This document shows positions 5,686 to 61,610 of a stretch of 64,000 nt of DNA, in pieces. The first letter of the stretch is position 1. The number at the start of each line of letters is the position of its first letter. Source of the DNA: Terriglobus sp. RCC_193. Lineage in GTDB: Bacteria; Acidobacteriota; Terriglobia; Terriglobales; Acidobacteriaceae. A model generated the notes under the pieces. That model was not told the DNA's origin. It searched no databases and was given only the letters and a program-made list of their open reading frames with translations. The translations under genes and the position numbers were made by a program. The DNA lies in contig NZ_JBFUPK010000001.1 of assembly GCF_041355105.1 (NCBI RefSeq), positions 930,001 through 994,000 on the forward strand, given 5' to 3'.

Positions 5686-5735
5686 ACATTTTCCCTGACG
5701 GTCTATGCGGAGAGTGGATGTCTGCGTCGTTTTCA

Positions 5736-5766
5736 ATCAAGGAAAACGACATTCGCTATCCTTGAT
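5736..5766. repeat. 8-bp inverted repeat in the upstream region of the propeller gene
   Basis: ATCAAGGA (5736-5743) and TCCTTGAT (5759-5766) are perfect inverted copies separated by 15 bases, between the S55 gene and the propeller gene. It could be an operator or an mRNA hairpin; nothing else in it is recognisable. Confidence 0.5.
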
Positions 5767-20860: not shown

Positions 20861-20887
20861 ACTGAAGCCCCTCATCGGGGCTTCAGT
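20861..20887 (-). terminator. Hairpin downstream of the GH95 gene
   Basis: ACTGAAGCCCC (20861-20871) and GGGGCTTCAGT (20877-20887) form a perfect eleven-pair stem with a five-base loop. It lies just after the stop of the minus-strand GH95 gene and before the phosphoketolase promoter region. The T-rich side is on the plus strand, so it may only shield the transcript end. Confidence 0.6.
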
Positions 20888-41176: not shown

Positions 41177-42295
41177 CTAAGTCACTGCGTTGTTACGACG
41201 TGAGGCTGGGGGCAGGCTCTTGCGCGTGATCAGTTCGTGTTCCACGTAGTTGTATGGTGGCACGGTGTCGCCATCCAGGATCGCGAGGGCAAGACGAAGC
41301 ACTTCACCACCATAGTTCTGCGTGTGGTGAGCCGTCGTCGCTATCAATACCGATTTTGCCTTGCGTAACTCCTGCAACGCTTCTGGAATCGCGTCGTGGC
41401 CCGCGATCATCACCTGTTTCTCGCGGCCCAATTCGCGCGCTGCATCCAGGGCGCCAAGCGCACTGGTATCGTTCGCTGCAGCGATAAGAATGTGGGCGCT
41501 CTTGGGATGCCGCTTGAGGAACTCATAGACCGCCTTGCGGCTACTGTCCCGTTTGCCGCGACCGTCGATGCGCACAAAGTACTCCACCGGAACGTCCGGC
41601 ATCACGGCCTTGATGCCTTCAAAGGCTCCCGTGATGCGGCTCTGCACGATTTGACCCGCCTCCGGAATATCGAGCCCAAGGATCCAGTCCGCCTCTCCCT
41701 TCCAGTTTTGCACTGCACGCTTCCCAAGCAATTCACCCACGTCATAGCCCATGCGATAGTTGTCCACGCCAAAGAAAATGGCGCGGGGATGCGGAATCTC
41801 GATTGCGATCATGGGAATGCCTGCGCCTGCGATTTTGTCCGCGATCACGGGCGCTATCTTCTGCTCGATCTGAAATTCGATGACGAGATCGACCTTGGCA
41901 CTGACAAACTCCTCGGCGTTTCGGATAGCCGTCGCCTCGTCATAGGCGTTGTCCAGCACCATGAGTTCTACTCCGGCTGCCTGAGCCGCTTCCTGCAGGC
42001 TCTGCGTCACCGCCATGGAGAACGGCATATCTGCGCTCTGGGCTGCAAAGCCGAACAGCAACTTATTCTGTTTGGAGAGCACCCGATATAGACCATCGCT
42101 GCCCCGCGCCACGTAGCCGCGGTGCACAAACGTGCGCAACACCCGATACGCAGTGGTCTTGGAGATGCGTGTTGTACGGTGGATCGCCTCAAGCGACAGG
42201 GCTTCCCGCCCATCCCGCAGTAGTTCCAGGATATCAAGTGCCTTGGAGAGAACTGGAACCAGGTAGAGTCGTTTCGGAGACTTGACCAACGGCAT
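41177..42295 (-). CDS. Chimeric regulator: IclR-type HTH fused to a sugar-binding (PBP/LacI-like) domain
   Basis: This 372-aa protein starts with a winged helix-turn-helix of IclR type (about 10-72; VPVLSKALDILELLRDGRE, then ISKTTAYRVLRTFVHRGYV). It continues, not with the IclR effector domain, but with a periplasmic-binding-protein-type sugar domain (about 85-345) like those of LacI regulators and ribose-binding proteins. It has LVIEFQIEQKIAPVIADKI, IPMIAIEIPHPRAIFFGVDN and AANDTSALGALDAA. There is no signal peptide. Its position 81 bases after rhaI points to a rhamnose-responsive regulator. The start ATG at 42295 lies next to an operator-like repeat, suggesting autoregulation. Ligand and sense of control are inferred. 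Confidence 0.85.
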   Translation of the reverse strand: MPLVKSPKRLYLVPVLSKALDILELLRDGREALSLEAIHRTTRISKTTAYRVLRTFVHRGYVARGSDGLYRVLSKQNKLLFGFAAQSADMPFSMAVTQSLQEAAQAAGVELMVLDNAYDEATAIRNAEEFVSAKVDLVIEFQIEQKIAPVIADKIAGAGIPMIAIEIPHPRAIFFGVDNYRMGYDVGELLGKRAVQNWKGEADWILGLDIPEAGQIVQSRITGAFEGIKAVMPDVPVEYFVRIDGRGKRDSSRKAVYEFLKRHPKSAHILIAAANDTSALGALDAARELGREKQVMIAGHDAIPEALQELRKAKSVLIATTAHHTQNYGGEVLRLALAILDGDTVPPYNYVEHELITRKSLPPASRRNNAVT

Positions 42296-42297
42296 TC

Positions 42298-42309
42298 CTC
42301 TATTGAAAA
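42298..42309. promoter_or_regulatory. Rhamnose-module operator-like site A (regulator gene)
   Basis: CTCTATTGAAAA lies directly upstream of the regulator start codon, downstream of a TATACT element (plus-strand 42320-42325). The same word, in the same orientation relative to its gene, precedes rhaI. Confidence 0.5.
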
Positions 42310-42375
42310 CAGTAACGGAAGTATAGTACGTACCGGAACCGCGATAAACACCCGGTTCCCTACGACTCTCTGGCG

Positions 42376-43560
42376 CTATGCGTATCTGGACACCGAACCT
42401 GCGTTCGATTTGCCTCGCTCGGCCTCGGTAGCCTCGACGTAACCGCTCGCGTACAGTTCGGCCAGCGGGTCTACGGGCAGATTGCGTGCCCGCCGCCATT
42501 CGCGTACTACGGGGCGAACATCCGTCCAAAAAGCGCCACGAAAGAGTTCTTCCGCAGCCACGAGATTCACAGAATCCTGCAGCTCTGCAAGCTGAGTTCG
42601 ATCGACCAGCGCCGCCCGCGCATAGAGTTCCTGCGCAGTCACAACGGTCTGCACGGCTGCCTCCATCTTGCCCTTCAGGTTATGGCTCTGATCAATCATG
42701 AAAGCCACTTCCTGCGTGGCTGAACCACCATCCGACAGCAGTTCATGAAAGATGCGGAAGACCTGGTAGGGATCGATGGAGCCAAGTGTCAGATCATCAT
42801 CCGCATACTTGCGATCGTTGAAGTGGAAACCTCCCAGCATGTTCAGGTGCAGCAACCACGCCACGATCTGCTCGATGTTCTGGCCGACGTAATGATGGCC
42901 GGTGTCCACCAGTACCTTTGCCTGCGGACCAGCCTTGTAGGCAAGCATGAGTGCCATACCCCAGTCAGCGATGTCCGTGTGGTAGAACGCAGGCTCAAAC
43001 GGTTTGTACTCCACCAGCAGGCGCTGGCCGGGTGCGAGTGCGGCATGCGTCCGGCTCAAGGCGTCCTGCGTCCACTCGATGCGCCTGCGAATGCTCTGCG
43101 TTCCCGGGTAGTTCGAGCCGTCGGAATCCCAGATAGAGATATCCCGTGATCCCAGGCGGCGTGCAAGCTCCACGGATTCGAGCAGATGCGAGACAGCAAT
43201 CTCGCGCACCTCTGCCGACGGGTTCGCAATGGAACCAAACTTGTACGCCTGATCCTGAAAGAGGTTCGGGTTAATGGACCCAGCTTTAATACCGTATTTC
43301 GCCTCGAGAGCCTTGATGGCCGAAACATCCGCGACGCCGTTGGGAAGATCCCAAAGTACGTGCAGCGCGACTGTGGGGGCAGCCCCGGTAAGACGATTCA
43401 CTTCACCCGCGTCTGCAAACTTCTCTTCGATCGAGGTAGCTGCTCCGGCCTGTACAAACTTTCCAAAGCGCGTTCCGGTATTAGCAAAGCCCCACGACGG
43501 CAGTTCGATACGGAATGTATCCAGCGCGGAAAATATAAGATCTTGCACGGCAGAGGTCAT
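42376..43560 (-). CDS. rhaI: L-rhamnose isomerase (RhaI type)
   Basis: This 394-aa TIM-barrel isomerase converts L-rhamnose to L-rhamnulose. It shows the metal-site segments ISIWDSDGSNYPGTQS, LLVEYKPFEPAFYHTDIADWG, VDTGHHYVGQNIEQIVAWL and GGFHFNDRKYADDDLTLGS, typical of the Pseudomonas stutzeri-type isomerase and not of E. coli RhaA. The ATG at 43560 is preceded by GGAG at eight bases. It is divergent from rhaT and upstream of the chimeric regulator. No rhamnulokinase or rhamnulose-phosphate aldolase is in the window. Confidence 0.9.
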   Translation of the reverse strand: MTSAVQDLIFSALDTFRIELPSWGFANTGTRFGKFVQAGAATSIEEKFADAGEVNRLTGAAPTVALHVLWDLPNGVADVSAIKALEAKYGIKAGSINPNLFQDQAYKFGSIANPSAEVREIAVSHLLESVELARRLGSRDISIWDSDGSNYPGTQSIRRRIEWTQDALSRTHAALAPGQRLLVEYKPFEPAFYHTDIADWGMALMLAYKAGPQAKVLVDTGHHYVGQNIEQIVAWLLHLNMLGGFHFNDRKYADDDLTLGSIDPYQVFRIFHELLSDGGSATQEVAFMIDQSHNLKGKMEAAVQTVVTAQELYARAALVDRTQLAELQDSVNLVAAEELFRGAFWTDVRPVVREWRRARNLPVDPLAELYASGYVEATEAERGKSNAGSVSRYA

Positions 43561-43586
43561 TAGAATTTCTCCAGGTAAACCTGCAC

Positions 43587-43598
43587 CTCTATTGAAAC
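43587..43598. promoter_or_regulatory. Rhamnose-module operator-like site B (rhaI)
   Basis: CTCTATTGAAAC lies 27 bases upstream of the rhaI start codon. It shares CTCTATTGAAA with site A. Confidence 0.5.
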
Positions 43599-43660
43599 AC
43601 TTTCCCGCTATACGTTCCAACAGCAATGGGTTTGCCCAGCATAAAGTTTGAGGACCTATA

Positions 43661-43673
43661 CTTCAATAGAAAC
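43661..43673. promoter_or_regulatory. Rhamnose-module operator-like site C (rhaT)
   Basis: CTTCAATAGAAAC is the reverse complement of GTTTCTATTGAAG. It lies in the spacer of a possible promoter (TTGAGG upstream, CATAAT downstream) 32 bases before the rhaT start. Confidence 0.5.
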
Positions 43674-43704
43674 ATAATTCCTATAGAGACTGTGATACGC
43701 AGCC

Positions 43705-44859
43705 ATGGGTTCTAACCCGCTTGTCGGTGTGATCTACCACTGGATCGGTGGCTTTGCCTCCGCGACCAACTTCATCCCTTTCCGCGGTATTAAGCGCTGG
43801 TCGTGGGAGATCTACTGGCTCATCCAGGGTGTGGCCGCCTGGATCGTCGCGCCGATCTTGCTGTCGAGCATCTTCGTGCCCGACACAATTCATATTCTGT
43901 TAATCACGCCGCGCCCGGTCATGGAACACGCGATTTTGTGGGGCATGCTCTGGGGTATCGGAGGCATCACATTTGGCCTGTCCATCCGCTACCTGGGGTT
44001 GGCGTTGGGCTATGCCATTGCCCTGGGCTTCTCGACCGTTGTCGGCACGCTGATGCCTCCCATCCTCAGCGGACAGCTAGTGGAGATCGTCAGTGAACGT
44101 TCCGGACAGGTCGTATTAGCGGGCATCGGCTTGTGCCTATTGGCAATCGTGGTGAATGGCCTTGCCGGCCGGCGCAAAGAAAAGGAAGTCACAGCCGCTG
44201 ACAAGATCGAAGGCGGGGATCGGGACTATTCCTTTGGCCGCGGCATGGCAGTGGCTGTGTTTGCCGGCATCATGAGTAGCTTTTTTGCAGTTGGACTGGA
44301 CGCTGGCAAGCCCATTGGCGCTCTTGCGCGTGAGTCCTTGCTGCAGCACGGGCGCCTTGAACTGTGGCAGAACCTGCCGGTCTTGATCGTTGTGCTTTGG
44401 GGCGGGTTTGCCACGAACCTGATCTGGTCGGTCATACTGATCGTCAAGAACCACTCAGCACGTGAGTTCCTCGGACAGCCAGGGCTCAACCCGATGCGGT
44501 CTGTGCGCCGTTCGGATGTGACTTTGGAAAGCTTCGATCCAGGGAACCCAGACACCTTTCGCATTGCGCCCTGCACACTGCTGACCAATTACCTTCTTGC
44601 AGCGGCAGCCGGCGTCATTTGGTACTTCCAGTTCTTCTTCTATTCCATGGGTCAGACCAAAATGGGTAAGTTTGACTTCTCATCGTGGACCCTCCACATG
44701 GCTTCTATCATCCTCTTCGCAACACTATGGGGTATTGTGCTGAAGGAGTGGCGCGGCACCAGCGCCAGGACGAAAGTGCTGGTTGCGCTGGGCATCGTCC
44801 TCCTGGTGAGTTCGACAATCGTGGTCGGACTCGGGAACTACCTGAAGAGCACGCAATAG
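43705..44859 (+). CDS. rhaT: L-rhamnose/proton symporter RhaT
   Basis: This 384-aa inner-membrane transporter has ten hydrophobic segments and the RhaT family sequence throughout. It begins NPLVGVIYHWIGGFASATNF and includes WLIQGVAAWIVAP and LGLALGYAIALGFSTVVGT. It imports L-rhamnose with protons. It is divergent from rhaI across a 144-base region that holds two operator-like sites. Its substrate would come from the GH106 rhamnosidase encoded just downstream. The ATG lacks a strong ribosome-binding site. Confidence 0.92.
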   Translation: MGSNPLVGVIYHWIGGFASATNFIPFRGIKRWSWEIYWLIQGVAAWIVAPILLSSIFVPDTIHILLITPRPVMEHAILWGMLWGIGGITFGLSIRYLGLALGYAIALGFSTVVGTLMPPILSGQLVEIVSERSGQVVLAGIGLCLLAIVVNGLAGRRKEKEVTAADKIEGGDRDYSFGRGMAVAVFAGIMSSFFAVGLDAGKPIGALARESLLQHGRLELWQNLPVLIVVLWGGFATNLIWSVILIVKNHSAREFLGQPGLNPMRSVRRSDVTLESFDPGNPDTFRIAPCTLLTNYLLAAAAGVIWYFQFFFYSMGQTKMGKFDFSSWTLHMASIILFATLWGIVLKEWRGTSARTKVLVALGIVLLVSSTIVVGLGNYLKSTQ

Positions 44860-44978
44860 TAGTTAGTTTGTACTGTGTCCGGCCATGGATATGCGTGCCG
44901 TTCCGATTAGTGTTTCTCATCTGGTATTGTTTCTGTCGTGAGTCCACGCTTCACGGACCGGGGAAATTGGAGTCTTGC

Positions 44979-47720
44979 ATGAGCGGCAGTGAAGGCATAA
45001 CAGCAGTAGCCGTAAGGCGCCGTCGTTCGATACATAATGTTTGGATACGATCATTGGCAATAGCCGCAGTCCTGGCGTGCACCGGATTTGCGTCGACCGC
45101 GCAGGAGATCGCGCAGTTGCGGAAACAGTTCGCCGATCCGCCTGCGGATGCTCGTCCTATGGTTCGCTGGTGGTGGTTCGGACCCGCTGTCACGAAGGAA
45201 GAGATCGGCCGCGAGATCGACCAGATGCATGCAGGTGGTTTCGGGGGTTTCGAACTCGCATCGGTCTATCCGTTGACACTGGATGATCCAGCCAAGGGTA
45301 TTCAGAACCTGCGCTATGCCTCTCCGGAGATGGTGGACATGTTGCGCTTCGCGCAACAGCATGGACGCCAACTTGGCATGCGCGCAGACCTGACGCTGGG
45401 TAGCGGATGGCCGTTTGGTGGGCCCCACATCACCATCGACCTTGCTGCAGCAAAACTGAAGACGGTGGCCTTGCCCCTGCACTCGCCACCACCCAAATTG
45501 GATGCGGGGGAGTCACTGATCGCAGTATTCGGCGCCAAGGGGACACCAGAGCGCTGGAACGCGGCGACCGCGAAGCGTGCGACCGCGGATGGAGCAGGGG
45601 TTCACTTTGACGAGGCGGATCGCCCGGATGTTGCGCTGTACTTCATCCTCAGTCACACCAGGCAGATGGTGAAGCGCGCAGCTGTCGGTGGCGAGGGCTA
45701 TGTCATGGATCACATGTCACGACAGTCGGTTCAGACGCACCTGCGCGCGGTCGGCGAGCCGTTGCTCGGTGCGTTCAAAGATGCGCCGCCGTATGCCATC
45801 TTCTCCGATTCGTTGGAGGTCTACGGTCACGACTGGACACCCGCGCTGCCAGAGGAGTTCCGCAAGCGGCGCGGCTATGATCTGCTGGACCACCTGCCCG
45901 AGCTTATGCAGGGCGGAACACCGCAGGCTGAGGCTGTTCGGCACGACTGGGGTGTGACCCTTTCCGATCTGGTAAGCGAGAACTATCTGAAGCCGATGGC
46001 CGACTTCGCCACGCAGCACGGCACAAAGTTCCGCTCACAGACCTATGGCGAACCCGCTGTGACACTGGCCGACGAGCGCTTTCCACAATTACCAGAAGGC
46101 GAGGGTCCGCAGTGGAGAGCGTTCTCCTTTACGCGATGGGCAACATCCGCGAATCACATCTTTGGAAACAATGTCTCGTCGACGGAGACCTGGACGTGGC
46201 TGCACTCGCCCGTCTTCCGCGCGACTCCTCTCGATATGAAGGCGGAGGCCGATAAGCACTTTCTGGAGGGCGTGAACCAGTTGATCGGTCACGGCTGGCC
46301 GTACTCGGCGCCTTACGCACAGGAACCTGGTTGGTCGTTGTATGCAGCGGCCGTTTTCAATGCTCATAACCCCTGGTATCCCGTGATGCCTCAGGTAACT
46401 CGCTATCTGCAGCGCGTGAGCTGGATGATGCGACAAGGCCAACCCGCGAACGATGTCGCGATCCTGCTGCCGGAAGATGATGCACAGGCTGCCTTCCAGC
46501 CGGGGCATGTCTCTGTGACGGTGGAGATGAAGAAGCACATTACTCCAGAGCTGATGGAGTCCGTGCTGAACGCGGGCTACAACCTGGATTACATCGACGC
46601 CGAAGCCATCGCCCTGCGCGGCCTGCATTACCCGGTGCTCATTGTTCCACCCACGAAGCGCATGCCGCTGACGATGCCTGGGCAATTGCAACAGTATGCC
46701 GCAACAGGTGGCAAGATCATCTTTGTGGGTGAGCTGCCGTCAGTCGCTCCGGGCTTGATCGATGCAGCGCAAAGTGCTGACTTAAGGAGAGAGATTGCAG
46801 CCCTCCAAGCGCATGCACAACATGTCGCTTCATTCTCAGAGTTACAGCCTGCGCTTCGTAAGGCGCTGCCGCCCGACCTGGACGTTAGCGCATCGAAAGG
46901 GGCTGTCGGCTTCATCCATAGAAAGCTGGACGGCGGCGACATCTACTTCATCGCGAATACCTCTTCGGCGACACAATCGCTTACGATGACACCTCGCGCA
47001 CAGCGTGCCCATGCCGAGTGGTGGAACGCTGATGATGGCACGGAGACGCAGGCCCGCACCGGTACGACCGTCGTGCTGCCACCGTACGGGTCGCGGTTAC
47101 TCGTGTTACATGATGGCCCTGCCGCGAAGCTTCCCGTAGAACCTGCGATGACGGCTGCGAGCGAAGCGCCCACCAGCCTCACAGGTTGGCATGCTGAGTT
47201 TCCTGGCAGCCCTGGTTCCAGCAGCGTTGCAGACCATGCTGTGTCATCTACGGACTGGAGCACGGAGGCGAGTACGCGCTTCTATTCCGGCGAAGCACGC
47301 TATCGAACAACATTTGAAGAGAAGAAAGCCAGGAAGGCCAACAGAGTTGTCTTGCGCTTTGCTGACGGAAAGGCTCTTCCCGATCTACAAGCTGCTGACA
47401 AGCCAGGTTCCAGAGCGTGGTACGACGCTCCCGTGCGCGATGCCGCCATTGTCTTGGTGAATGGACAAGAAGCCGGTGTGCTCTGGCATCCACCGTATGA
47501 GGTGGACATCACGCCGATGCTGAAGAGCGGTAAAAATCAGATCGAATTGCGTGTGTTCAATACCGCGATGAATGAAATGGCAGGAAGGCCGCCCGTGGAC
47601 TATACCGCGCTGAAGGCAAAGTACGGCGACCGATTCCAAATGCAGGACATGGATCAGGTCAAAGCGGAACCCTCGGGCATCGTGGGTCCAGTTGTTGTGG
47701 AGTACCGTCATGCGAAATAA
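44979..47720 (+). CDS. Alpha-L-rhamnosidase, GH106
   Basis: This 913-aa secreted enzyme hydrolyses alpha-L-rhamnosides. The GH106 opening is seen in PMVRWWWFGPAVTKEEIGREI, with the following segments MRADLTLGSGWPFGGPH and DSLEVYGHDWTPALPEEF, and a C-terminal beta-sandwich with GQEAGVLWHPPYEVDITP. The signal region precedes ASTAQE. The ATG at 44979 has GGAG seven bases upstream; an open frame continues upstream but only inside the rhaT gene. Its end overlaps the PL22 start by 11 bases. It would release rhamnose from rhamnogalacturonan fragments for RhaT. Confidence 0.9.
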   Translation: MSGSEGITAVAVRRRRSIHNVWIRSLAIAAVLACTGFASTAQEIAQLRKQFADPPADARPMVRWWWFGPAVTKEEIGREIDQMHAGGFGGFELASVYPLTLDDPAKGIQNLRYASPEMVDMLRFAQQHGRQLGMRADLTLGSGWPFGGPHITIDLAAAKLKTVALPLHSPPPKLDAGESLIAVFGAKGTPERWNAATAKRATADGAGVHFDEADRPDVALYFILSHTRQMVKRAAVGGEGYVMDHMSRQSVQTHLRAVGEPLLGAFKDAPPYAIFSDSLEVYGHDWTPALPEEFRKRRGYDLLDHLPELMQGGTPQAEAVRHDWGVTLSDLVSENYLKPMADFATQHGTKFRSQTYGEPAVTLADERFPQLPEGEGPQWRAFSFTRWATSANHIFGNNVSSTETWTWLHSPVFRATPLDMKAEADKHFLEGVNQLIGHGWPYSAPYAQEPGWSLYAAAVFNAHNPWYPVMPQVTRYLQRVSWMMRQGQPANDVAILLPEDDAQAAFQPGHVSVTVEMKKHITPELMESVLNAGYNLDYIDAEAIALRGLHYPVLIVPPTKRMPLTMPGQLQQYAATGGKIIFVGELPSVAPGLIDAAQSADLRREIAALQAHAQHVASFSELQPALRKALPPDLDVSASKGAVGFIHRKLDGGDIYFIANTSSATQSLTMTPRAQRAHAEWWNADDGTETQARTGTTVVLPPYGSRLLVLHDGPAAKLPVEPAMTAASEAPTSLTGWHAEFPGSPGSSSVADHAVSSTDWSTEASTRFYSGEARYRTTFEEKKARKANRVVLRFADGKALPDLQAADKPGSRAWYDAPVRDAAIVLVNGQEAGVLWHPPYEVDITPMLKSGKNQIELRVFNTAMNEMAGRPPVDYTALKAKYGDRFQMQDMDQVKAEPSGIVGPVVVEYRHAK

Positions 47721-49089
47721 AGCCATCGTCGCTTCCCTTGCCTTAGTGTGCTGTGCGGTCGCGACAGCACAGACCGCTGTCCCGCCAAAGACATGGGTGG
47801 ATAAAGACACGGGACACCGTGTCTATCGGTTAACCGATGAACCAAATTCTTCTGGCTTCTATTTCAATAACAACGCCTACTCTCCGGATGGACGATGGAT
47901 GGTTTACACCGCGCCCGACGGCGTCCACGCGCTGGAATTAACGACAAGGAAGACGCGCCTGTTAGTGGCGAATCCTCCGCGCAACGGAACTGGCCCGTCG
48001 ACGAACTATCGGACGATCGTTGTTGGTCATAAGACCAATAGCGTATTTCTGTCACGCTTCGATGCAGAGGCGAAGGGCACCATACTCTTCAAGGCCGACC
48101 TCGAAAGCGGTCAACTTACAAGGCTGGCTGCGTTGCCTGCTCGCGGTAGTGTCGCCAGCATCAATGCAGATGAGACGCTCGGCGTTGGCACCTATGACGA
48201 GACGGAGCAAGGTGCTCAGCAGGAATACAACAGGCCCGCAGTTGTACCCAGAGGTGCGGGCAGCCCAGCAGCAGTGCCCGGTGGGCTGGTACAGCCTGAG
48301 GGCAAGGGCGAGATGATGGAACGGCGCCTGGCCGCCCGCATTCCTGTCGTGCTGTACACGGTAGATCTGCGAACAGGCAAGGTGCGAGAGCTGCTGCACT
48401 CCACCGACTGGATTGGCCACATGCTCTTCTCACCCACAGATCCCACTCTGCTGATGTATTGTCACGAAGGTCCATGGCAGAAGGTCGATCGCATTTGGAC
48501 GATCCGCACGGATGGCACGCAGAACACGTTGATGCATAAGCGCACCATGTTCATGGAGATTGCAGGCCATGAGTTCTGGGGCCTTGACGGCGAGACGATC
48601 TGGTACGACTGGCAGCCAGCGAAAGGCGAAGACTTCTGGTTGGCCGGGATCAATCTGCAGACGCATAAACGCGTGGCATATCACATGCAGCGGAACGAAT
48701 GGTCGATCCACTTCAATCTGACGCAGGACATGGACCTATTCGCCGGAGATGGCGGTGACCCAGGCCAGGTTGCAAAGGCGCCTGATGGCGAGTGGATTTA
48801 TCTCTTCCATCCACAGTGGGTGAAGGATCAGGGCGGCATCGACCAACCAGATTTCACGAAGCCTGGTTTTTTCCAGGCAGAGCGGCTGGTGAACATGTCC
48901 AGGCACAACTATCGGCTGGAGCCGAATGTGCGCTTCTCTCCTAACAAGAAATTGGTGTTATTCACCTCGAACATCTTCGGCGCTTCCTATGTCTTCGGTG
49001 TTGAGGTAGCGAAAGCAGACAACGCGTTGGATGTGGAGTCGACGCCAGAGTTAGCAGCTCGGTTTAGACCATCCGCTCCGGCGAAATAG
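47710..49089 (+). CDS. Oligogalacturonate lyase-like protein, PL22
   Basis: This 459-aa protein is a seven-bladed propeller of the PL22 type, which cleaves short oligogalacturonates by beta-elimination with a metal ion. It shows NNNAYSPDGRWMVYTAPDG early, GHEFWGLDGETIWYDWQP in the middle, and EPNVRFSPNKKLVLFTSN at the end, as in known members. Unlike the cytoplasmic enterobacterial enzyme, it has a signal peptide (RNKAIVASLALVCCAVATA), so it acts in the periplasm or outside. The start overlaps the end of GH106 by 11 bases, with GGAG upstream, so the two are coupled. Confidence 0.85.
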   Translation: MRNKAIVASLALVCCAVATAQTAVPPKTWVDKDTGHRVYRLTDEPNSSGFYFNNNAYSPDGRWMVYTAPDGVHALELTTRKTRLLVANPPRNGTGPSTNYRTIVVGHKTNSVFLSRFDAEAKGTILFKADLESGQLTRLAALPARGSVASINADETLGVGTYDETEQGAQQEYNRPAVVPRGAGSPAAVPGGLVQPEGKGEMMERRLAARIPVVLYTVDLRTGKVRELLHSTDWIGHMLFSPTDPTLLMYCHEGPWQKVDRIWTIRTDGTQNTLMHKRTMFMEIAGHEFWGLDGETIWYDWQPAKGEDFWLAGINLQTHKRVAYHMQRNEWSIHFNLTQDMDLFAGDGGDPGQVAKAPDGEWIYLFHPQWVKDQGGIDQPDFTKPGFFQAERLVNMSRHNYRLEPNVRFSPNKKLVLFTSNIFGASYVFGVEVAKADNALDVESTPELAARFRPSAPAK

Positions 49090-49237
49090 CATAGGGCGCA
49101 ATCCCCTCGATTTTCGGCTCATACTTCCGAGAGCGTCTCATTCCCCTGCTGTTCGCATGGTTCGGGCGAGATGAGTACGCCCGTTACTCATTGCGTTATG
49201 AAGTCTGCTGCCTCTACCAAAGTCCGAGCAAAGAAAT

Positions 49238-49263
49238 GCCCTGAACGTTTCCACGTTCAGGGC
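49238..49263 (-). terminator. Intrinsic terminator of the second TonB receptor gene
   Basis: GCCCTGAACG (49238-49247) and CGTTCAGGGC (49254-49263) form a perfect ten-pair stem with a six-base loop. ATTTCTTTG follows on the minus strand, 26 bases after the receptor stop. Confidence 0.8.
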
Positions 49264-49288
49264 TAAAAGAGTCACCACGTTTTTGGTC

Positions 49289-52200
49289 TTAGAACTGCAG
49301 GCGTCCTGAGAGTTGGAAGGAGCGGGGGTCGGCGCTTGCGAAGTTCAGCGTTCCGAATGCCGCGCTGTTGACGTTGACGTTGATCTGGTTGTTGCCCGCG
49401 TTGTTCCCGAAGGTTGTGTGATTAGTCATGTTCGAGCCGTCTACGCCAAAGACGAAGTTCACCCGTTCGGTGATTGGGAAGGTGCGACGTAGCGCCATGC
49501 TGAGACGGTAGTTATCGGGTCCACGCAGGTTACCGGGGAAACGCGGCGCGTCGCCGATCATGTAGTTGCCCGAGTTGCAGAACGGCCCGGTGGAGACTCC
49601 GCACGCGACATTACCAACGCCGACTCCCGATGTGGTGGTGGAGATGTAGCCGGTCAGGTAGCTGAGCGAGCCGAGGTTTGCGGAGGTGACTCCCTTGCCC
49701 CACTTGCCGTTGGTGCGGATGTCACCGTGGAAGTTCGGGTTCGAATCCGGCATGCAGGTGCCCTGACCAACGTTCTGTGTTGAGTTGCACGTGGCGACGA
49801 TGGGCAGGGGCAGACCTGAACTGTACTGAAAGATCAGCGATGTCTGCCAACCGCTCAGCAGAGCGCGGTTCACGAAGTGACTTCCACCAAAGCTGCCTTT
49901 GCCGTACTGGCTGTTATAGACGCCGTAGATGCTGAGGTTCTGCGGCTGGTCATTGATAGAGATGGAGCGGTCGATCCTATTGCGCGGATGGCTTTGGCCG
50001 TCCGCGATCGCGGAAGCGGGGATGTCATAACCGCTTCGCTGGGTGCCCGCATTGTCCACGTTCTGAGAGTAGGTGTAGTTGATGTTGAGGGTCAGTCCTT
50101 TATACGCACGTTGCGCAACTGCTACCTGGAGCGAGTTGTAGTTGGCATTCGCGACATAGTTGCCCCAGAAGTCCGATGTACCGGAGTACTGCGGCATCCA
50201 TGTGAGCATGTGTGCGATGGTTGCGTTGGTGTTGACGCCTGCCGCAGCCGTATACGCCGCGTAAGGAATGGGTAGAGTGATGCCGCTGGCAGCTTGCGCC
50301 GCAGCAATGTTCGCTGCCGTTGCCGGCTTGGTCAGGTTGGCGCCCAGTGCAAGGTACTTGGGATCAAGCTGGCCAGCATACAGGCCGCGGATGTTACTTG
50401 CGCCCGCAATGAAATGGCTCTGGCTGCCGGAATAGTCGACAGAGACTGTCAGGTTCTTTGTGATCTCGCGCTGGATGCCATAGTTATAGAAGGAGAACTG
50501 CGGCGAGCGGCTTCCGATGTACGGATCCGCGTAGTTGATGCCGGAACCGTTACCACCGGAGGCGCCAGTGCTTGTGACGTAGAAGCCCGTACCAAGCGAC
50601 TGCGCTGCCAGCGATGGTGTGGACGTCCCCGGAAGCGAGTAGTTGGCTCCGCCATAGTTGGCATTGCGCTGCGAGAATGCCGGGTTGTTGTTCAAGTAGA
50701 AGGCAGGACCTGCCGTGCTGTCGGCGAAGGAGATGGGCGTTGAGAAGCCGGTCTGACCTGTACCGGTACCCGCACCCGCCGCACCACCGGTGGCACCACC
50801 GTGAGAGTAAGTAAGGCTGTAACCACCGCGGAGGACAGTCTTGTCGTCGAGCTGGAAGGCGAAGCCGATACGGGGCTCGAAGTTCTTCATATAGGTGTTG
50901 ACGGGGGTGGTGCACTCACAGCTCAAGCCTGCGCCGCGGTGGCCTGCAAACTGAAGCGCACCTTTGTTCCCCGTGATGGGATTGGTGATGTCCGGGTTCA
51001 GGAACGACCAACGGTCTGCCACTTCACGATAGGGAGGGATATAGTCCCAGCGAAGGCCGGCGTTGATGGTCAGCTTGCTGGTGATCTTGAAGTCGTCCTG
51101 GAAGTACAGGGCGAACGGGCGATAGCGACCGCCAACGATGCTGAAGGGCTGCTGTGTAACGCTGGAGGACCCGACTGCACCTAATAGGAAGCTGGCATAT
51201 GAATAACCAGTGTTGGCAACGTAGGTCGATCCCGTGAGGTTGGCCGTTTCGTTGGTGCTGAATCCAAGCGAGGTAGGCGTAGACGGGCCGTCTGCCGTGT
51301 CCGCATTGTTCTGCAACCACTGGATCTGTCCACCGAAGTTCATGGAGTGGCGGCCCACGACGTAAGACAAATTATCCACGAACTCATAGGTGTAAGAACG
51401 ATTCGTCGTGGTGGGCGTGTTGCCTACCCAGGAGGTTGGGGCGTTGGTGCCGGTGAACGAGAGGTTCGCTGCGTTGTCCGAAGCCTGGCCGGAAGGAAGA
51501 CCCGTGATGCCAGAGGCAGCCAGGCCATACAGACCGGGGTTGGTCTGACCGGTGATGTTGCCGACCGGCGGGCCACCGAAGTAGATGAAGCCATACTTGG
51601 CCTGGTTCACGAGGCGGTCCGTGATCTGGTATGTGTGCTGCAAGTCCGCGACCCGACCCAGGATGGTCGAGAGTGTGGTCTGGATGTATGGAACAACCGC
51701 GACACCTGCCGTGCTGCTACCGGTATACGGAGAGGCATGCCGCTGGCCCTGGCTGTACGCGCCGGACAGGGTCTGCTTAGAAGAGATGGTGTAATCAATG
51801 CGCGCAGAATACAGATAGTTGTCGAACCCGGTTGGCGCCGCGCTATAGAAGTTATTTACCAGCGACGTTGTCTGCGGTGCCGGAAGGAACTTCGCCATGT
51901 ATTGGGTGATCGGCGAGATCTGCGCGGTAGGAATAACGTTTACGGGAGCGGCCGTCCGTACGGGATTCCCTGCCGGTCCTGCGGCTGCACCGCCGGTGTA
52001 GCCGTACTGGTACCGGCATGGGCCATTCGTGCTTTTGGCTGTGCACGCTGCCTGGGTAGTGGGATCGTAGATGGCATAAGGCAGATCCGAGAAATCACCC
52101 GTACGCATCTTCAACGTGGGAACGGTGCTGGGCGAGGGGTTGGCACCCAGGCGAGACCGGAAGCGATCCAGTGTGGTGAAGAAGAAGAGGCGGTCCCGAC

Positions 52201-53176
52201 CATTGAAAAGGAACGGAATTCTGACCGGGCCACCGAAGGTATAGCCGTATTCGATCTGGTGCTCTGGTGGCTTTGGCCCTGGAGTAGCGGTGGCAACACC
52301 GTTGATGATCTTGTAGGTCACATTGCCGGGCGAACCAGGCTTGGAGGAGAAGGACCACGCATCGAAGATGGTGTTACGGACGTATGCGAATAAGGAGCCG
52401 TGATAATCGTTCGTGCCGGCCTTCAGGTTGTAATTCTCCAGGCCTGCGCCCTGATACTGCGCGGAGTAGCCGCTGGTTAGAACCTTGACGGAATCGATCG
52501 CCTCGAGAGGAATGATGTTGAAGACAGGGCGATTGTCACCCTGCTGACTCGCCGTGGTGAGGGGCAGTCCATCGACGTAGAGTTCGCCCACGCGCTGCCC
52601 CGTACCACCAATGATGGAAGATCGTCCGCCGGGATTGACCTGTGCGCCAGGCAGCAGGTTTGAGAACTGCGTGATGTCGCGCTGCTGACCACCCGCCATG
52701 AGCAGCGGCAACGCTGCATAGGTCTTGTTGTCGATCAGGCCGCCAAGCGAGGCTGTAGTCGTATCCAGTTGGGGCGGTGCCGCGCTTACCATCACGGTCT
52801 CAGCCTGGTTGCCAATCTGCAGCGTAACATTCAGGCCGACACTGCCAAGTGCTTCAAGGACTACGTTCTTCTGCTCTGTTGTGGTGAAGCCGGGACTAGA
52901 CACAGTGATGGTATAGGTGCCAGGGAGCAGAGGTGAGAGTGTGTACACGCCGCTGGAGGTGGAGGTGCGGACCGTTGTGACACCCGTGGCTACATTGAGC
53001 GCGGTGACCGTTGCATTTGGGATGGAAGCGCCAGTCTGATCGACGACGATGCCGCTGACGGTGCCGCCGCCTGACTGGGCGAAGCTCGCTCCAACGCTGA
53101 AGCACAGGAGTACAGCAGCGGCGGCAATGGGCCTGACCGCGTGGACTCTCCCGTAGATGTATTTGGGTTGTTTCAC
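49289..53176 (-). CDS. TonB-dependent receptor with carboxypeptidase-regulatory-like N-domain (rhamnose module)
   Basis: This 1295-aa outer-membrane receptor is of the same Oar-like type as the one in the pectin module. The signal peptide ends near GASFAQ. The regulatory-like domain (about 38-120) contains GIVVDQTGASIPNATVTALN. The plug and a long barrel follow, ending in RSFQLSGRLQF with the terminal Phe. The start is GTG, supported by GGAGG at four to five bases. An operator-like site shared with rhaT lies upstream, so it is likely coregulated with rhamnose uptake. No SusD-like gene is present. The ligand is probably rhamnogalacturonan-derived; this is inference. Confidence 0.88.
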   Translation of the reverse strand: MKQPKYIYGRVHAVRPIAAAAVLLCFSVGASFAQSGGGTVSGIVVDQTGASIPNATVTALNVATGVTTVRTSTSSGVYTLSPLLPGTYTITVSSPGFTTTEQKNVVLEALGSVGLNVTLQIGNQAETVMVSAAPPQLDTTTASLGGLIDNKTYAALPLLMAGGQQRDITQFSNLLPGAQVNPGGRSSIIGGTGQRVGELYVDGLPLTTASQQGDNRPVFNIIPLEAIDSVKVLTSGYSAQYQGAGLENYNLKAGTNDYHGSLFAYVRNTIFDAWSFSSKPGSPGNVTYKIINGVATATPGPKPPEHQIEYGYTFGGPVRIPFLFNGRDRLFFFTTLDRFRSRLGANPSPSTVPTLKMRTGDFSDLPYAIYDPTTQAACTAKSTNGPCRYQYGYTGGAAAGPAGNPVRTAAPVNVIPTAQISPITQYMAKFLPAPQTTSLVNNFYSAAPTGFDNYLYSARIDYTISSKQTLSGAYSQGQRHASPYTGSSTAGVAVVPYIQTTLSTILGRVADLQHTYQITDRLVNQAKYGFIYFGGPPVGNITGQTNPGLYGLAASGITGLPSGQASDNAANLSFTGTNAPTSWVGNTPTTTNRSYTYEFVDNLSYVVGRHSMNFGGQIQWLQNNADTADGPSTPTSLGFSTNETANLTGSTYVANTGYSYASFLLGAVGSSSVTQQPFSIVGGRYRPFALYFQDDFKITSKLTINAGLRWDYIPPYREVADRWSFLNPDITNPITGNKGALQFAGHRGAGLSCECTTPVNTYMKNFEPRIGFAFQLDDKTVLRGGYSLTYSHGGATGGAAGAGTGTGQTGFSTPISFADSTAGPAFYLNNNPAFSQRNANYGGANYSLPGTSTPSLAAQSLGTGFYVTSTGASGGNGSGINYADPYIGSRSPQFSFYNYGIQREITKNLTVSVDYSGSQSHFIAGASNIRGLYAGQLDPKYLALGANLTKPATAANIAAAQAASGITLPIPYAAYTAAAGVNTNATIAHMLTWMPQYSGTSDFWGNYVANANYNSLQVAVAQRAYKGLTLNINYTYSQNVDNAGTQRSGYDIPASAIADGQSHPRNRIDRSISINDQPQNLSIYGVYNSQYGKGSFGGSHFVNRALLSGWQTSLIFQYSSGLPLPIVATCNSTQNVGQGTCMPDSNPNFHGDIRTNGKWGKGVTSANLGSLSYLTGYISTTTSGVGVGNVACGVSTGPFCNSGNYMIGDAPRFPGNLRGPDNYRLSMALRRTFPITERVNFVFGVDGSNMTNHTTFGNNAGNNQINVNVNSAAFGTLNFASADPRSFQLSGRLQF

Positions 53177-53240
53177 AACGCCTCCGAAGGACGAATCAAG
53201 GATTGGCCACGTTTAAATCAGTAGAACCAATACAAGAATA

Positions 53241-53255
53241 GTTTCTATATTGAAG
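53241..53255. promoter_or_regulatory. Rhamnose-module operator-like site D (TonB receptor)
   Basis: GTTTCTATATTGAAG is nearly identical to the reverse complement of site C (GTTTCTATTGAAG), with two extra central bases. It lies 65 bases upstream of the receptor start. Confidence 0.5.
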
Positions 53256-53407
53256 TACGCACAATCTGGTCTGCGTAAATGCGAATCGACTGGCCAAAAC
53301 AATGTAACGCTGGGAATGCAGATTAGTACAGGAATTTTCTTGCGATGCCTAAAGAGATGTATTCCGTCTTATGCGAAGTGATTGTCTGTCCGCATATCAT
53401 TTCCCTA

Positions 53408-53437
53408 TTGACTTGCCTGTCCCCGCCAACCTATCCT
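53408..53437 (+). promoter_or_regulatory. Promoter candidate for the GH105-CE12 gene
   Basis: TTGACT (53408-53413) and TATCCT (53432-53437) are 18 bases apart and oriented towards the GH105-CE12 gene. Confidence 0.4.
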
Positions 53438-53611: not shown

Positions 53612-55696
53612 GTGGCCGCTTTCTTTCGCAATCCCCTGATTGCAGTTGTGCTTCTGTCAACGACGACTATTGCCTCAGGGCAAATGGCGTGGCCGCATCC
53701 TACAGCGCCGATGCAGGCCGGCATTGATAAGGACACATCGCGGCACTTTGGCGATGCACCTGCCGATGCCGGGCCGCTGGCGAAGGACCTGTCACCTGCG
53801 CTGACGCCTGCAGCGATTGATGCCGCAACACGAAAGGTTGCGGATTGGCAATTGCGCATCGCGGAGCCCTACTTTGACCGCATCTGGACATGGAGTGTTC
53901 TCTACTCCGGCTTTATCGCTGCGTCAGAGTCGACGGGCGATCCGAAGTACCGCGATGCGATGCAGCGGATGAGTGAGCATTTCAGCTTTGAGCTGGCAGG
54001 GCGGTTGCCAAATGCCGATACAGAAGCCATAGCGCAGACTTACCTGGAACTGAATCTGCAGCGTGCGGCACAGAACAATGGGTGGTCCCCTGCCCTGGCG
54101 GCGACAATGGTCGATCCCACTCGGAGGGATCTCGATTCCATCATTGATCTGCCAACGTTAAAGCCCGGCGATCAGCGGATTGCATGGTGGTGGTGCGATG
54201 CGCTCTTTATGGCGCCACCGGTGTGGGCGAGGATGTATGCCGCAACGGGCGAGCACAAGTACATCGACTACCTGAACAAGCAGTGGGCTATGACCTATGC
54301 CGCGCTGTGGGATGCCGATGAGCACATGTATGCGCGAGATGAAAGCTACAAGTCGCAACGTGGGCCTGGCGGGAAGAAAATCTTCTGGTCACGCGGTGAG
54401 GGTTGGGTCATGGGTGGGCTGGTGCGGACGCTGGAATACCTGCCCAGGGATGATCCGCGCCGTAGCTTCTACGAGCAGAATCTAAGGGAACTGGCTGCGG
54501 CTGTGACGCGTCAGCTTGATCCTAAAACGCACCAGTTGCATGCATCGTTGCTGGATGCGGAGCACTTTCCGTTGGATGAGACGTCCGGGACGGCACTGTA
54601 TCTGTACGGGCTGACGTGGGGCGTGAATGAGGGTGTGCTGGATGCGAAGACGTACCGGCCGGTGATTGCGAAGGTTTGGGCAGGGCTATTGAAGCATGTA
54701 TATGCCAACGGACGGCTGGGAGGCATTCAGCAGACCGGTCCTGAGCCTGCGTTCTATCCTCCGTCAGCATCATTCAACTATGGCGTGGGTGCGTACCTCA
54801 TGGCTGCGGCGGAGTTGAAGCGAATGAGTTTAGGCTCTGGTGCTCCGGCCCGACTGGCTTCGCGGTTGCCGGTGCATTCGAAACAGGTAGGGACGATGGT
54901 CAGCACGGACCCATTGGTGCAGGCACATATTGATCTGCCCGTGCCGGCCAATCCCACGTTGCGCAACCTGATCCTGGTGGGAGATTCCACAGTACGTAAC
55001 GGCAAGGGTGACGGCGCGAATAACCAGATGGGCTGGGGAGATGAACTCGCGCCGTATTTCGATACTTCGAAGATCAATGTGGTGAACCGGGCCATCGGCG
55101 GGCGGAGTTCTCGGACGTACATTACGGAGGGTCACTGGGATTCGACCCTGCCTTATATCCGGAAGGGTGATGTCGTGCTGATCCAATTTGGGCATAACGA
55201 TGGCGGGCCGCTCGACGATACAGCGCGTGCGCGTGGAACGATGCCCGGTGTTGGAGAGGAGAGCAAAGAGATTGAGAACCCGATCCTGAAACGCCATGAA
55301 ACCGTGCACACGTTTGGGTGGTATCTGACCAAGTATGTTCGCGACGTGAAGGCGCGTGGGGCGAGTCCGATCCTGTGTTCGCTGATCCCACGGAAAATCT
55401 GGCAGGACGGCAAGGTTGTGCGTTCGACATCGACCTATCGCGGCTGGACCCAGGCAGTGGCGGAGCGGGAGCATGTAGGGTTCATTGATCTAAATGAGAT
55501 TATTGCCGAGCAGTACGACGCGCTGGGTGCAACGGCTGTAGAGCCGCTGTTTGGGGATGAACATACGCACACGACGGCGGCCGGAGCCATGCTGAATGCA
55601 AAGGCTGTGGTGAGTGGGTTGAAGCATCTTGCAGATGATCCCGTTGCTGGAGATTTCTCGCCTACGGGAGCAAGTGTGGCGGCGTTTCGACCCTGA
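53612..55696 (+). CDS. GH105-CE12 fusion: unsaturated uronyl hydrolase plus rhamnogalacturonan acetylesterase
   Basis: This secreted 694-aa two-enzyme protein has a signal peptide ending near ASGQ. The N-terminal part (about 60-410) is a GH105 barrel, with RIAWWWCDALFMAPPVWARM, FWSRGEGWVMGGLVRTLEYL and FPLDETSGTALYLYGLTWG. The C-terminal part (about 445-680) is a CE12 SGNH esterase with LVGDSTVRNG, FGHNDGGP and DEHTHTTAAG. It would clip unsaturated galacturonate and remove acetyl groups from rhamnogalacturonan fragments. The start is GTG with AGGAG six bases upstream; no nearby ATG fits. It is the second GH105 and third CE12 domain in the window. Confidence 0.88.
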   Translation: MAAFFRNPLIAVVLLSTTTIASGQMAWPHPTAPMQAGIDKDTSRHFGDAPADAGPLAKDLSPALTPAAIDAATRKVADWQLRIAEPYFDRIWTWSVLYSGFIAASESTGDPKYRDAMQRMSEHFSFELAGRLPNADTEAIAQTYLELNLQRAAQNNGWSPALAATMVDPTRRDLDSIIDLPTLKPGDQRIAWWWCDALFMAPPVWARMYAATGEHKYIDYLNKQWAMTYAALWDADEHMYARDESYKSQRGPGGKKIFWSRGEGWVMGGLVRTLEYLPRDDPRRSFYEQNLRELAAAVTRQLDPKTHQLHASLLDAEHFPLDETSGTALYLYGLTWGVNEGVLDAKTYRPVIAKVWAGLLKHVYANGRLGGIQQTGPEPAFYPPSASFNYGVGAYLMAAAELKRMSLGSGAPARLASRLPVHSKQVGTMVSTDPLVQAHIDLPVPANPTLRNLILVGDSTVRNGKGDGANNQMGWGDELAPYFDTSKINVVNRAIGGRSSRTYITEGHWDSTLPYIRKGDVVLIQFGHNDGGPLDDTARARGTMPGVGEESKEIENPILKRHETVHTFGWYLTKYVRDVKARGASPILCSLIPRKIWQDGKVVRSTSTYRGWTQAVAEREHVGFIDLNEIIAEQYDALGATAVEPLFGDEHTHTTAAGAMLNAKAVVSGLKHLADDPVAGDFSPTGASVAAFRP

Positions 55697-59135: not shown

Positions 59136-59252
59136 TTGAGCACATCGCCATCCGCAGGCCGCACCCTTAAAGCCATTGTTACCGACGTCCAGTTCTGGGT
59201 GCCAGTCGCTGTTCTTGGCTTCGGCCTCGCATTGCTTATCGCGCTTCATTAA
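59136..59252 (+). CDS. 38-aa single-span membrane peptide
   Basis: A short frame from TTG at 59136 encodes a peptide with a hydrophilic head and one membrane span (FWVPVAVLGFGLALLIALH). GAGG lies five bases before the start. It is 28 bases upstream of the GRP transporter start and likely cotranscribed. I recall similar tiny proteins annotated as hypothetical in acidobacteria, but cannot check. It may be an accessory of the transporter or a leader peptide controlling it. Confidence 0.6.
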   Translation: MSTSPSAGRTLKAIVTDVQFWVPVAVLGFGLALLIALH

Positions 59253-59280
59253 GCGTTAATTTTTCTTCAGGATTACTGCC

Positions 59281-60590: not shown

Positions 60591-61610
60591 GTGGCCGTAC
60601 GACTGAAAGACATTGCGCGTGACCTGAACGTGTCCACCGTGACCGTTTCCAAAGTGCTGCGCGGCAACCCGGACATCAGCGAGGCCACGCGCGCGCGCGT
60701 GCTGCAGCGCATGCAGGAACTGAACTACCAGCCGAACATGCTGGCACGCGGGCTGGCCAGCGGGCGCACGTACACCGTTGGCCTGGTCGTTCCCGACCTG
60801 GTGCAGACCTTCTTCGCGGAGTTCGCAAAGTCACTCTCTGAAGTTCTGCGTGAGACGGGTCGAGCCCTCATCATCGCGTCTTCGGAAGACAACCCGGCAA
60901 TTGAGCAATCGGAGATCCGCACGCTACTCAGCCGTGGCGTGGATGTGCTGCTCATTGCCTCGTGCCAGCAGAACCTGACCAGCATCTACCAGTCCGGTGA
61001 TGAACGTACCCCGTACCTGCTGATTGACCGTAACCACCCGGAACTGGAAGCTCCTTTCGTGGGTGGTGATGATTTCGCTGTAGGCTGCATGGCCACGCAG
61101 CACCTCATCGATACCGGCAGAAAACGCATCGCCCACATCACGGGGCGTCCGCTCAGCCCATCGCTCGAGCGCGCCCGTGGCTATCGTGAAACGCTTGCGG
61201 CAAACCAGCTTTCGATGGACGAATCACTCGTCGTCCGCTTCGACCACATGGACGAAGCGGGTGACCGCGAAGGCTATGCTGCCATGCAACGCCTGCTGGA
61301 AACGCATCCTGATGTCGACGCGGTCTTCTGCTACAACGACCTTGCCGCCATCGGCGCTATGGAAGCCGCGCGTGACGCTGGGCGCTCCATCCCCGGCGAT
61401 ATCGCTTTCGTTGGCTGCGGCAACATGCGTTATGCCCGCTACCTGCGAACACCGCTGACTTCCATTGACCAGGGCACGGATCGCCTCGGCCAGCAGGCCG
61501 GACGACTGGCGATTCAACTCGCAGAACAGCCGAATCTTGAACCTCGCTCCGTTCTGTTGGAACCCTCGCTGGTCATCCGCGAATCCTCTCTGACAACTTC
61601 CGCCAAATAA
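60591..61610 (+). CDS. LacI-family transcriptional regulator
   Basis: This 339-aa regulator has the helix-turn-helix LKDIARDLNVSTVTVSKVLR (about 4-23), the hinge-helix segment MLARGLASGRTYTVGLV and a sugar-binding core to about residue 335. The start is GTG; an ATG is not available before the helix-turn-helix. It lies 29 bases after the GRP transporter stop and is probably cotranscribed. Candidate targets are the transporter and the inositol oxygenase operon, or the AAACGTTT sites in the pectin module. The ligand is unknown. Confidence 0.9.
   Translation: MAVRLKDIARDLNVSTVTVSKVLRGNPDISEATRARVLQRMQELNYQPNMLARGLASGRTYTVGLVVPDLVQTFFAEFAKSLSEVLRETGRALIIASSEDNPAIEQSEIRTLLSRGVDVLLIASCQQNLTSIYQSGDERTPYLLIDRNHPELEAPFVGGDDFAVGCMATQHLIDTGRKRIAHITGRPLSPSLERARGYRETLAANQLSMDESLVVRFDHMDEAGDREGYAAMQRLLETHPDVDAVFCYNDLAAIGAMEAARDAGRSIPGDIAFVGCGNMRYARYLRTPLTSIDQGTDRLGQQAGRLAIQLAEQPNLEPRSVLLEPSLVIRESSLTTSAK

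Follow-up and report, generated by a model that had tools for sequence, protein, structure and literature searches.

Probable operators of a hybrid IclR-type regulator in a rhamnose module of Terriglobus sp. RCC_193

The rhamnose module and its regulator

In Terriglobus sp. RCC_193, whose genome comprises 4.2 Mb, a rhamnose module was found within a 64 kb stretch of contig NZ_JBFUPK010000001.1 (positions 930,001 to 994,000; hereafter the window, with positions counted from its first letter). Based on Pfam and NCBIfam matches, the module contains genes for a chimeric regulator, L-rhamnose isomerase (rhaI), an L-rhamnose/proton symporter (rhaT), a GH106 rhamnosidase, a PL22-like lyase, and a TonB-type receptor. 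Short conserved sites lie before several of these genes, and very probably they are operators of the adjacent regulator, which would act as a sugar-responsive switch. An earlier interpretation of the letters of this DNA (the sequence-only reading) had listed four such sites, here A to D, and all were recovered within a few bases of where it had put them.

The regulator is a 372 aa protein encoded on the minus strand (41177..42295) and identified by Pfam, orthologs, and alignment. Residues 16-64 form an HTH_IclR winged helix (PF09339, E=2.3e-13, 50.1 bits against a cut-off of 22), while residues 81-343 form a Peripla_BP_4 sugar-binding domain (E=1.8e-27). This domain, of the periplasmic-binding-protein (PBP) type, is matched by both PF13407 and PF00532 above cut-off, and the solved structures best related to it by sequence are periplasmic sugar-binding proteins, e.g. 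2ioy. No Pfam match to the IclR effector-binding domain was found in the C-terminal part at E<=0.001. The regulator was thus not classed as a full IclR-family member: HTH_IclR is present and the IclR effector domain is replaced by Peripla_BP_4. The LacI-type DNA-binding domain PF00356, present in the neighbor at 60591, had no match in the regulator at E<=0.001, and with no AraC-, DeoR-, or LacI-type DNA-binding domain above the Pfam cut-off, HTH_IclR is its sole DNA-binding model. A paralog (38% identity) at C2:1013989-1015065 (L122) adjoins uxuA (mannonate dehydratase) and an outer-membrane beta-barrel receptor, and may be a uronate regulator built on the same hybrid plan.

Upstream of the regulator gene lies rhaI (42376..43560, minus strand), which is of the RhaI_grampos type (TIGR02635, E=1.3e-140), with a score of 468.7 bits that is below the curated cut-off of 531.35 bits. 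The divergent rhaT (43705..44859, plus strand; PF06379, E=9.7e-57, and NCBIfam) is, judging from spacing, probably the first gene of a rhaT-GH106-PL22 operon. The open reading frame (ORF) of the GH106 alpha-L-rhamnosidase (44685..47720, plus; PF17132) runs into the end of rhaT, and its real start is probably near 44.86 kb. It is followed by an oligogalacturonate-lyase-like protein of the PL22 family (47692..49089, plus; PF14583) and by the TonB-dependent receptor, an outer-membrane beta barrel with a Pfam match to OMP_b-brl_4 (49289..53176, minus).

Operator motif and sites in the window

Exact copies of TCTATTGAA were found at site A (42299, plus strand), site B (43588, plus), and site C (43662, minus), and a weaker relative, TCTATATTGAA, at site D (53244, plus). 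The shared TCTAT(AT)TGAA noted in the sequence-only reading is confirmed as an observation: three exact copies of TCTATTGAA were seen in 64 kb vs. 0.21 expected, a number reached in 1 of 100 shuffles. Moreover, the pattern TCTATTGAAN{0,1}A occurs three times in the whole genome, and two of these are A and B; an exact pattern match at C1:1128160 was taken as chance (8.7 bits). Three exact occurrences of TTCTATTGAA were listed in the genome, C among them. With one mismatch, however, the ten-mer is no commoner than its reversed control (119 vs. 108). Evidence from ten bases is therefore weak, and a longer motif was needed.

Such a motif was learned by expectation-maximization from 90 promoters of orthologous loci (41 regulator, 31 rhaI, and 18 rhaT promoters, the window's three included). 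From random seeds the search converged on TTTCAATAG, the sequence of the window sites, as seen in the best two runs shown at each of two widths, and refinement gave a site of 21 bp whose right box is TTTC. The ten bases of the earlier claim therefore cover only the left, conserved half of this operator, which spans about 21 bp. This operator comes in two forms, TTTCAATAGanAttttaTTTC before rhaI and rhaT (rha-form) and TTTCAATAGgGAAAc before the regulator (REG-form), the latter commonly spelled TTTCATTAGCGAAAC. Testing whether residues of the recognition helix covary with the operator was set aside, as the helix SKTT.YR.LKT is nearly invariant and leaves little to test.

As an independent test, the motif was retrained on 87 promoters of other genomes and scored at all positions of the window on both strands. 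The best matches were C (22.1 bits), B (18.7), A (16.9), a site at 59244 (14.6), D (13.7), and a site at 53393 (13.4), which supports the earlier claim of one regulon motif. In 60 simulated windows the best score had a mean of 13.8 and a maximum of 20.8, and the fourth-best never exceeded 12.5. A further 100 simulations, with a slightly different background, gave expected rha-form matches per 64 kb of 0.00 at 21 bits, 0.01 at 18, 0.08 at 16.5, and 0.65 at 13. Genome-wide, a sequence-only profile built from other genomes' sites (45 of 56, the 11 left out being mostly variant or low-scoring) matched two places at E<=10 among the 150 of 479 first-look candidates that were scored, and these are B and C (E 1.6 and 2.5). 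The earlier statement that the sites do not stand upstream of the pectin-module genes checked also agrees with the scan, where the best rha-form match before 41 kb reached only 9.6.

Site C (CTTCAATAGAAACATAATTCC; 43661..43681, plus), a full-length operator between rhaI and rhaT, is centered 34 bp upstream of the rhaT start. Site B (TTTCAATAGAGGTGCAGGTTT; 43577..43597, minus) is centered 27 bp upstream of the rhaI start codon. Site A (beginning TTTTCAATAGAGGAATG; 42288..42310, minus) overlaps the Shine-Dalgarno sequence and start codon of the regulator gene and would be its self-operator; third by the rha-form, it ranks first by the REG-form with 21.9 bits, whereas 100 simulated windows yielded none at 21.5. 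Binding of the regulator at its own promoter, as proposed earlier, is thereby well supported. Other REG-form matches in the window, 15.3 bits at 5729 and 13.2 at 20886, were taken as chance, being at the expected frequency (0.82 at >=14 and 2.35 at >=12); the former (5729-5746) precedes an ORF at 5918. The site at 59244-59264 (14.1-14.6 bits), before a sugar transporter, was likewise taken as chance. The same part of the window has genes for MIOX, a PfkB kinase, and a LacI regulator.

Site D (53225..53255, minus) is a probable operator variant before the receptor and consists of two overlapping matches, 53235-53255 on the minus and 53225-53245 on the plus strand (13.2 and 10.9 bits). In the sequence-only reading it was a site with an AT insertion. 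The site is present, but under strict counting the insertion model left the class of D at chance, and it was replaced by the motif learned from other genomes; by eye, the full-length operator in a one-base variant (TTCAATAtAGAAACTATTC) describes D better. It shares 20/31 bases with the rhaI/rhaT operators of one same-genus genome (G095) and 19/31 with those of another (G128), while the best of 3000 random 31-mers from the window reached 19 and none 20; the comparison was not blind, as these operators were picked after the likeness had been noticed. Strong sites before receptors in other genomes make a receptor target such as D plausible, and D may act as an operator. A weak candidate fifth site (53393..53413, minus; 13.0-13.4 bits by the rha-form, 14.9 by the REG-form) is at chance level when taken alone. 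It overlaps the -35 box of a promoter-like site, TTGACT-18-TATCCT (1 found vs. 0.6 expected), before a GH88-GDSL gene at 53612.

Operator and regulator in related genomes

Relatives of the regulator at E<=1e-30 were found in 55 of 150 family genomes, themselves a draw from a larger family. The window's own included, 47 genomes were classed as ortholog-bearing, three of them with fragments (49-69% identity apart from the own copy), and the remaining 8 have only a paralog (33-40%). In 33 of 40 ortholog neighborhoods rhaI, rhaT, or both (>=47% identity) lie within the fetched stretch, no more than about 9 kb from the regulator. To tie the motif to the regulator, rhaI promoters were scored with leave-one-genus-out training and a threshold of 12 bits, using 62 of 66 rhaI rows (G044, G036, G126, and the second G071 row were left out). 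The threshold was reached at 32/46 rhaI promoters in ortholog-bearing genomes vs. 0/16 in genomes without an ortholog (Fisher p 5e-7, uncorrected for shared ancestry). The same difference was seen within genera: 24.5 and 22.1 with the regulator and -3.0 without it in g33; 26.6, 18.1, 13.8, and 11.1 vs. -7.5 in g1; and 14.0 vs. 3.9 in g43, where the genome without it is 88% complete. Moreover, in three genomes (G072, G104, G133) the operator precedes rhaI even with the regulator distant or on another contig, which speaks for action in trans.

Conservation was examined further in held-out loci, the best 80 of 175 relatives from named genomes (Edaphobacter, Granulicella, Silvibacterium, Acidipila, Terriglobus, and others). 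Of these, 21 shared 60-mers with genomes already used and were removed as duplicates, leaving 59, among which close relatives may remain; one locus without sequence upstream of the regulator (L159) was scored as a miss. Rha-form sites of at least 12 bits were found at 37/39 rhaI and 12/12 rhaT promoters, with 0 in coding controls and <1% in shuffles. The REG-form, learned on the first set, reached 12 bits at 43/59 regulator promoters vs. 0.9% of shuffles. Other intergenic stretches, those within 400 bp of the regulator, rhaI, or rhaT being omitted, reached this score in 12/193 cases in the first 40 loci and 1/77 in the held-out loci. Conservation in orthologous loci, whose absence the sequence-only reading would have taken as refutation, was thus seen; for its other point of comparison, intergenic DNA, the frequencies are those just given. 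One locus (L208, JANXWZ010000182.1), on a contig labeled Rhodanobacteraceae, has a copy of the regulator (65% identity) and the operator before rhaI and rhaT; the family label is perhaps a binning error.

In other genomes, strong sites were found before genes for RhaEW-like proteins (aldolase II plus short-chain dehydrogenase; L037, L050, L062), for large outer-membrane receptors beside the regulator (L066, L068; Pfam was run on L066 only), and for a GH106 rhamnosidase (L049). In the window genome, rhaEW-rhaB and the second rhaI are not visibly part of the regulon. The former lie on a separate contig (rhaEW at C2:438819, 75% identical to rhaEW of G034), where one 15.9-bit match in the 18 kb scanned falls inside another ORF. 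The second rhaI (C1:368608-369780; L104:4606-5790) is 70% identical to that of the window. Its neighbors are genes for an M19 peptidase, a PSCyt1 protein, and a glutamate-dehydrogenase-type enzyme.

Several observations weigh against the sites being operators of this regulator throughout. In the window genome, neither the 18 kb around rhaEW-rhaB showed an operator upstream of these genes nor did the second rhaI promoter (C1:368608), and a consensus scan for sigma-70 promoters gave no full match at A, B, or C. Among regulator-bearing genomes 14/46 rhaI promoters remain below 12 bits, including 2/3 in genus g9. Five low-scoring genomes have a site elsewhere in the cluster (G041, G019, G089, G054, G062); in G056 the 18 kb fetched contain a single match >=15.5, next to a GH78 rhamnosidase gene, and G083 and G124 have only matches of 15.7 and 17.0 before genes without an assigned product. 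Conversely, 4 of the 16 regulator-less genomes are <90% complete (76, 84, 84, and 88%), making the absence of the regulator less sure there. The rha-form passes at only 21/59 held-out regulator promoters, and 13/270 other intergenic stretches of the loci reach 12 bits, some of them perhaps true targets. Lastly, the class of D (TCTATNNTGAA, one mismatch) is at chance, with 10 seen vs. 6.85 expected, and 64 kb should by chance contain 0.65 matches with a score like D's 13.2, which places D alone at chance level.

These figures for D, together with 2/23 other intergenic stretches of the window at >=12 bits (D's stretch included by construction), speak for the view that the four sites are coincidental ten-base matches in AT-rich intergenic DNA. 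As an account of the whole set this is extremely improbable: A, B, and C score far higher than chance allows, the genome-wide profile matched only B and C among the candidates scored, and conservation was seen in held-out loci. Chance is refuted for A, B, and C and applies at most to D. It is also improbable, though less remotely so, that the motif is read by another protein and that the chimeric regulator stands beside it by accident. Candidates for such a reader exist, namely the LacI-family regulator in the window (60591-61610, PF00356) and the IclR-PBP paralog beside uxuA. However, the site follows the chimeric ortholog, unlinked cases included, and the REG-form bears IclR-family half-sites. 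The window LacI protein finds only 27-29% relatives, in 3/40 ortholog loci. Six paralog-only genomes score <=5.8 at rhaI (G013, G029, G031, G059, G092, G146), and in the four where the paralog, as the only relative, lies near rhaI (G029, G059, G092, G146) the score is <=1.9. A paralog (38-39%) near rhaI was seen in L110, L111, L115, and L118, which lack the ortholog, and in L114 (G135), where it is present, with rhaI scores <=9.6; the paralog group probably reads another motif.

Comparison between genomes thus demonstrates, at the level of sequence, a conserved motif that has two forms and is tied to the presence of the regulator. That the chimeric regulator is the reader, as had been proposed, is supported by this tie, and binding at the sites and autoregulation are well supported predictions; direct binding, repression, the ligand, and the role of D are inferred. 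In the proposed mechanism, the IclR-type winged helix would read TTTCAATAG, and the PBP-like domain would probably bind L-rhamnose or an early product of it. With the sugar absent, a dimer or tetramer of the regulator would occupy A, B, and C, that is, the start regions of rhaI and the regulator gene as well as the gap between rhaI and the divergent rhaT-GH106-PL22. With the sugar bound, the regulator would be released and rhamnose uptake and isomerization would be switched on.

Sign of control and known systems

Promoter geometry was examined for sites pointing to the gene, with discovery and held-out loci counted together. At rhaI, TTGACR begins 31-45 bp upstream of the operator start in 17/48 promoters and elsewhere in 3 cases, so that the operator falls on the transcription start, where a repressor would sit. 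At rhaT, TABGAT begins 40-44 bp past the operator start in 16/20. The operator therefore ends at the -35 position in fixed phase with no TTGACA, an activator-dependent layout. At the regulator promoters YATAAT begins 30-34 bp past the site start in 16/48. In the window, the hexamers TATACT and TATAGC were seen by eye shortly upstream of A and B, and C is so near the rhaT start that the spacing found at rhaT in relatives does not fit.

This geometry favors repression as the predicted mode at rhaI and at the regulator promoter, while at rhaT it is compatible with either repression or activation. It is possible, if on balance unlikely, that the regulator activates at some or all promoters, or acts both ways depending on the site. 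The rhaT layout, with the operator in place of the -35 box, and the YATAAT spacing at the regulator promoters would suit an activator. In contrast, the TTGACR spacing at rhaI puts the operator on the transcription start, sites on -35 boxes are equally compatible with repression, and the window rhaT does not fit the geometry of its relatives. A more specific version, which we regard as speculative and somewhat doubtful, is that the two operator layouts correspond to two signs of control by one hybrid regulator, with rhaI repressed and rhaT activated. The regulator's own promoter would carry a two-box inverted repeat TTTC-N6/7-GAAA, and rhaI and rhaT a further TTTC box 17 bp on; the operator would cover the transcription start of rhaI but replace the -35 box at fixed phase at rhaT, and alternative dimerization of the IclR-type helix on the sugar-binding body would set the sign.

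The architecture has a precedent in AraR, which serves arabinose genes. In Bacillus subtilis this regulator likewise joins a winged helix to a GalR/LacI-type sugar-binding domain, although its DNA-binding part is GntR-type rather than HTH_IclR (excerpts of PMC4218819). With the IclR family, according to excerpts of a survey (PMC8222616), the regulator has in common the HTH_IclR winged helix, half-sites TTYC...GRAA, and site centers mostly 20-80 bp before the start codon. The half-sites of TTTCATTAGCGAAAC agree by eye with the consensus given there for IclR group 1, GKTYCRYW3-4RYGRAMC, with a center one base shorter. Three alternating boxes are described for 32 IclR ortholog groups (PMC8222616), and by analogy the rhaI/rhaT form with its second TTTC may be of this three-box type. 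Unlike in the family as surveyed there, the effector part is a sugar-binding PBP domain, the operator center is one base shorter, and there are two operator forms. The main text of that survey contains none of the words 'Acidobacter', 'rhamnose', and 'periplasmic'.

Rhamnose regulons have been described with AraC, DeoR, or LacI regulators that differ between lineages (Rodionova et al., 2013, PMC3870299, excerpts). As here, their targets are genes for rhamnosidases and for the catabolism and transport of rhamnose; neither 'IclR' nor 'Acidobacter' appears in that paper's main text. In the searches made of open-licence literature, judged by titles and abstract starts, no IclR-PBP or IclR-type rhamnose regulator was found. 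The combination of an IclR helix with a sugar-binding domain would therefore be a further architecture for rhamnose control, in a major group of soil bacteria, the Acidobacteria, which go unmentioned in the main text of both surveys (PMC8222616, PMC3870299). For dozens of named genomes it supplies an operator and a regulon that can be tested, and the two operator layouts for one regulator would give a direct handle on the dimerization of such hybrids.

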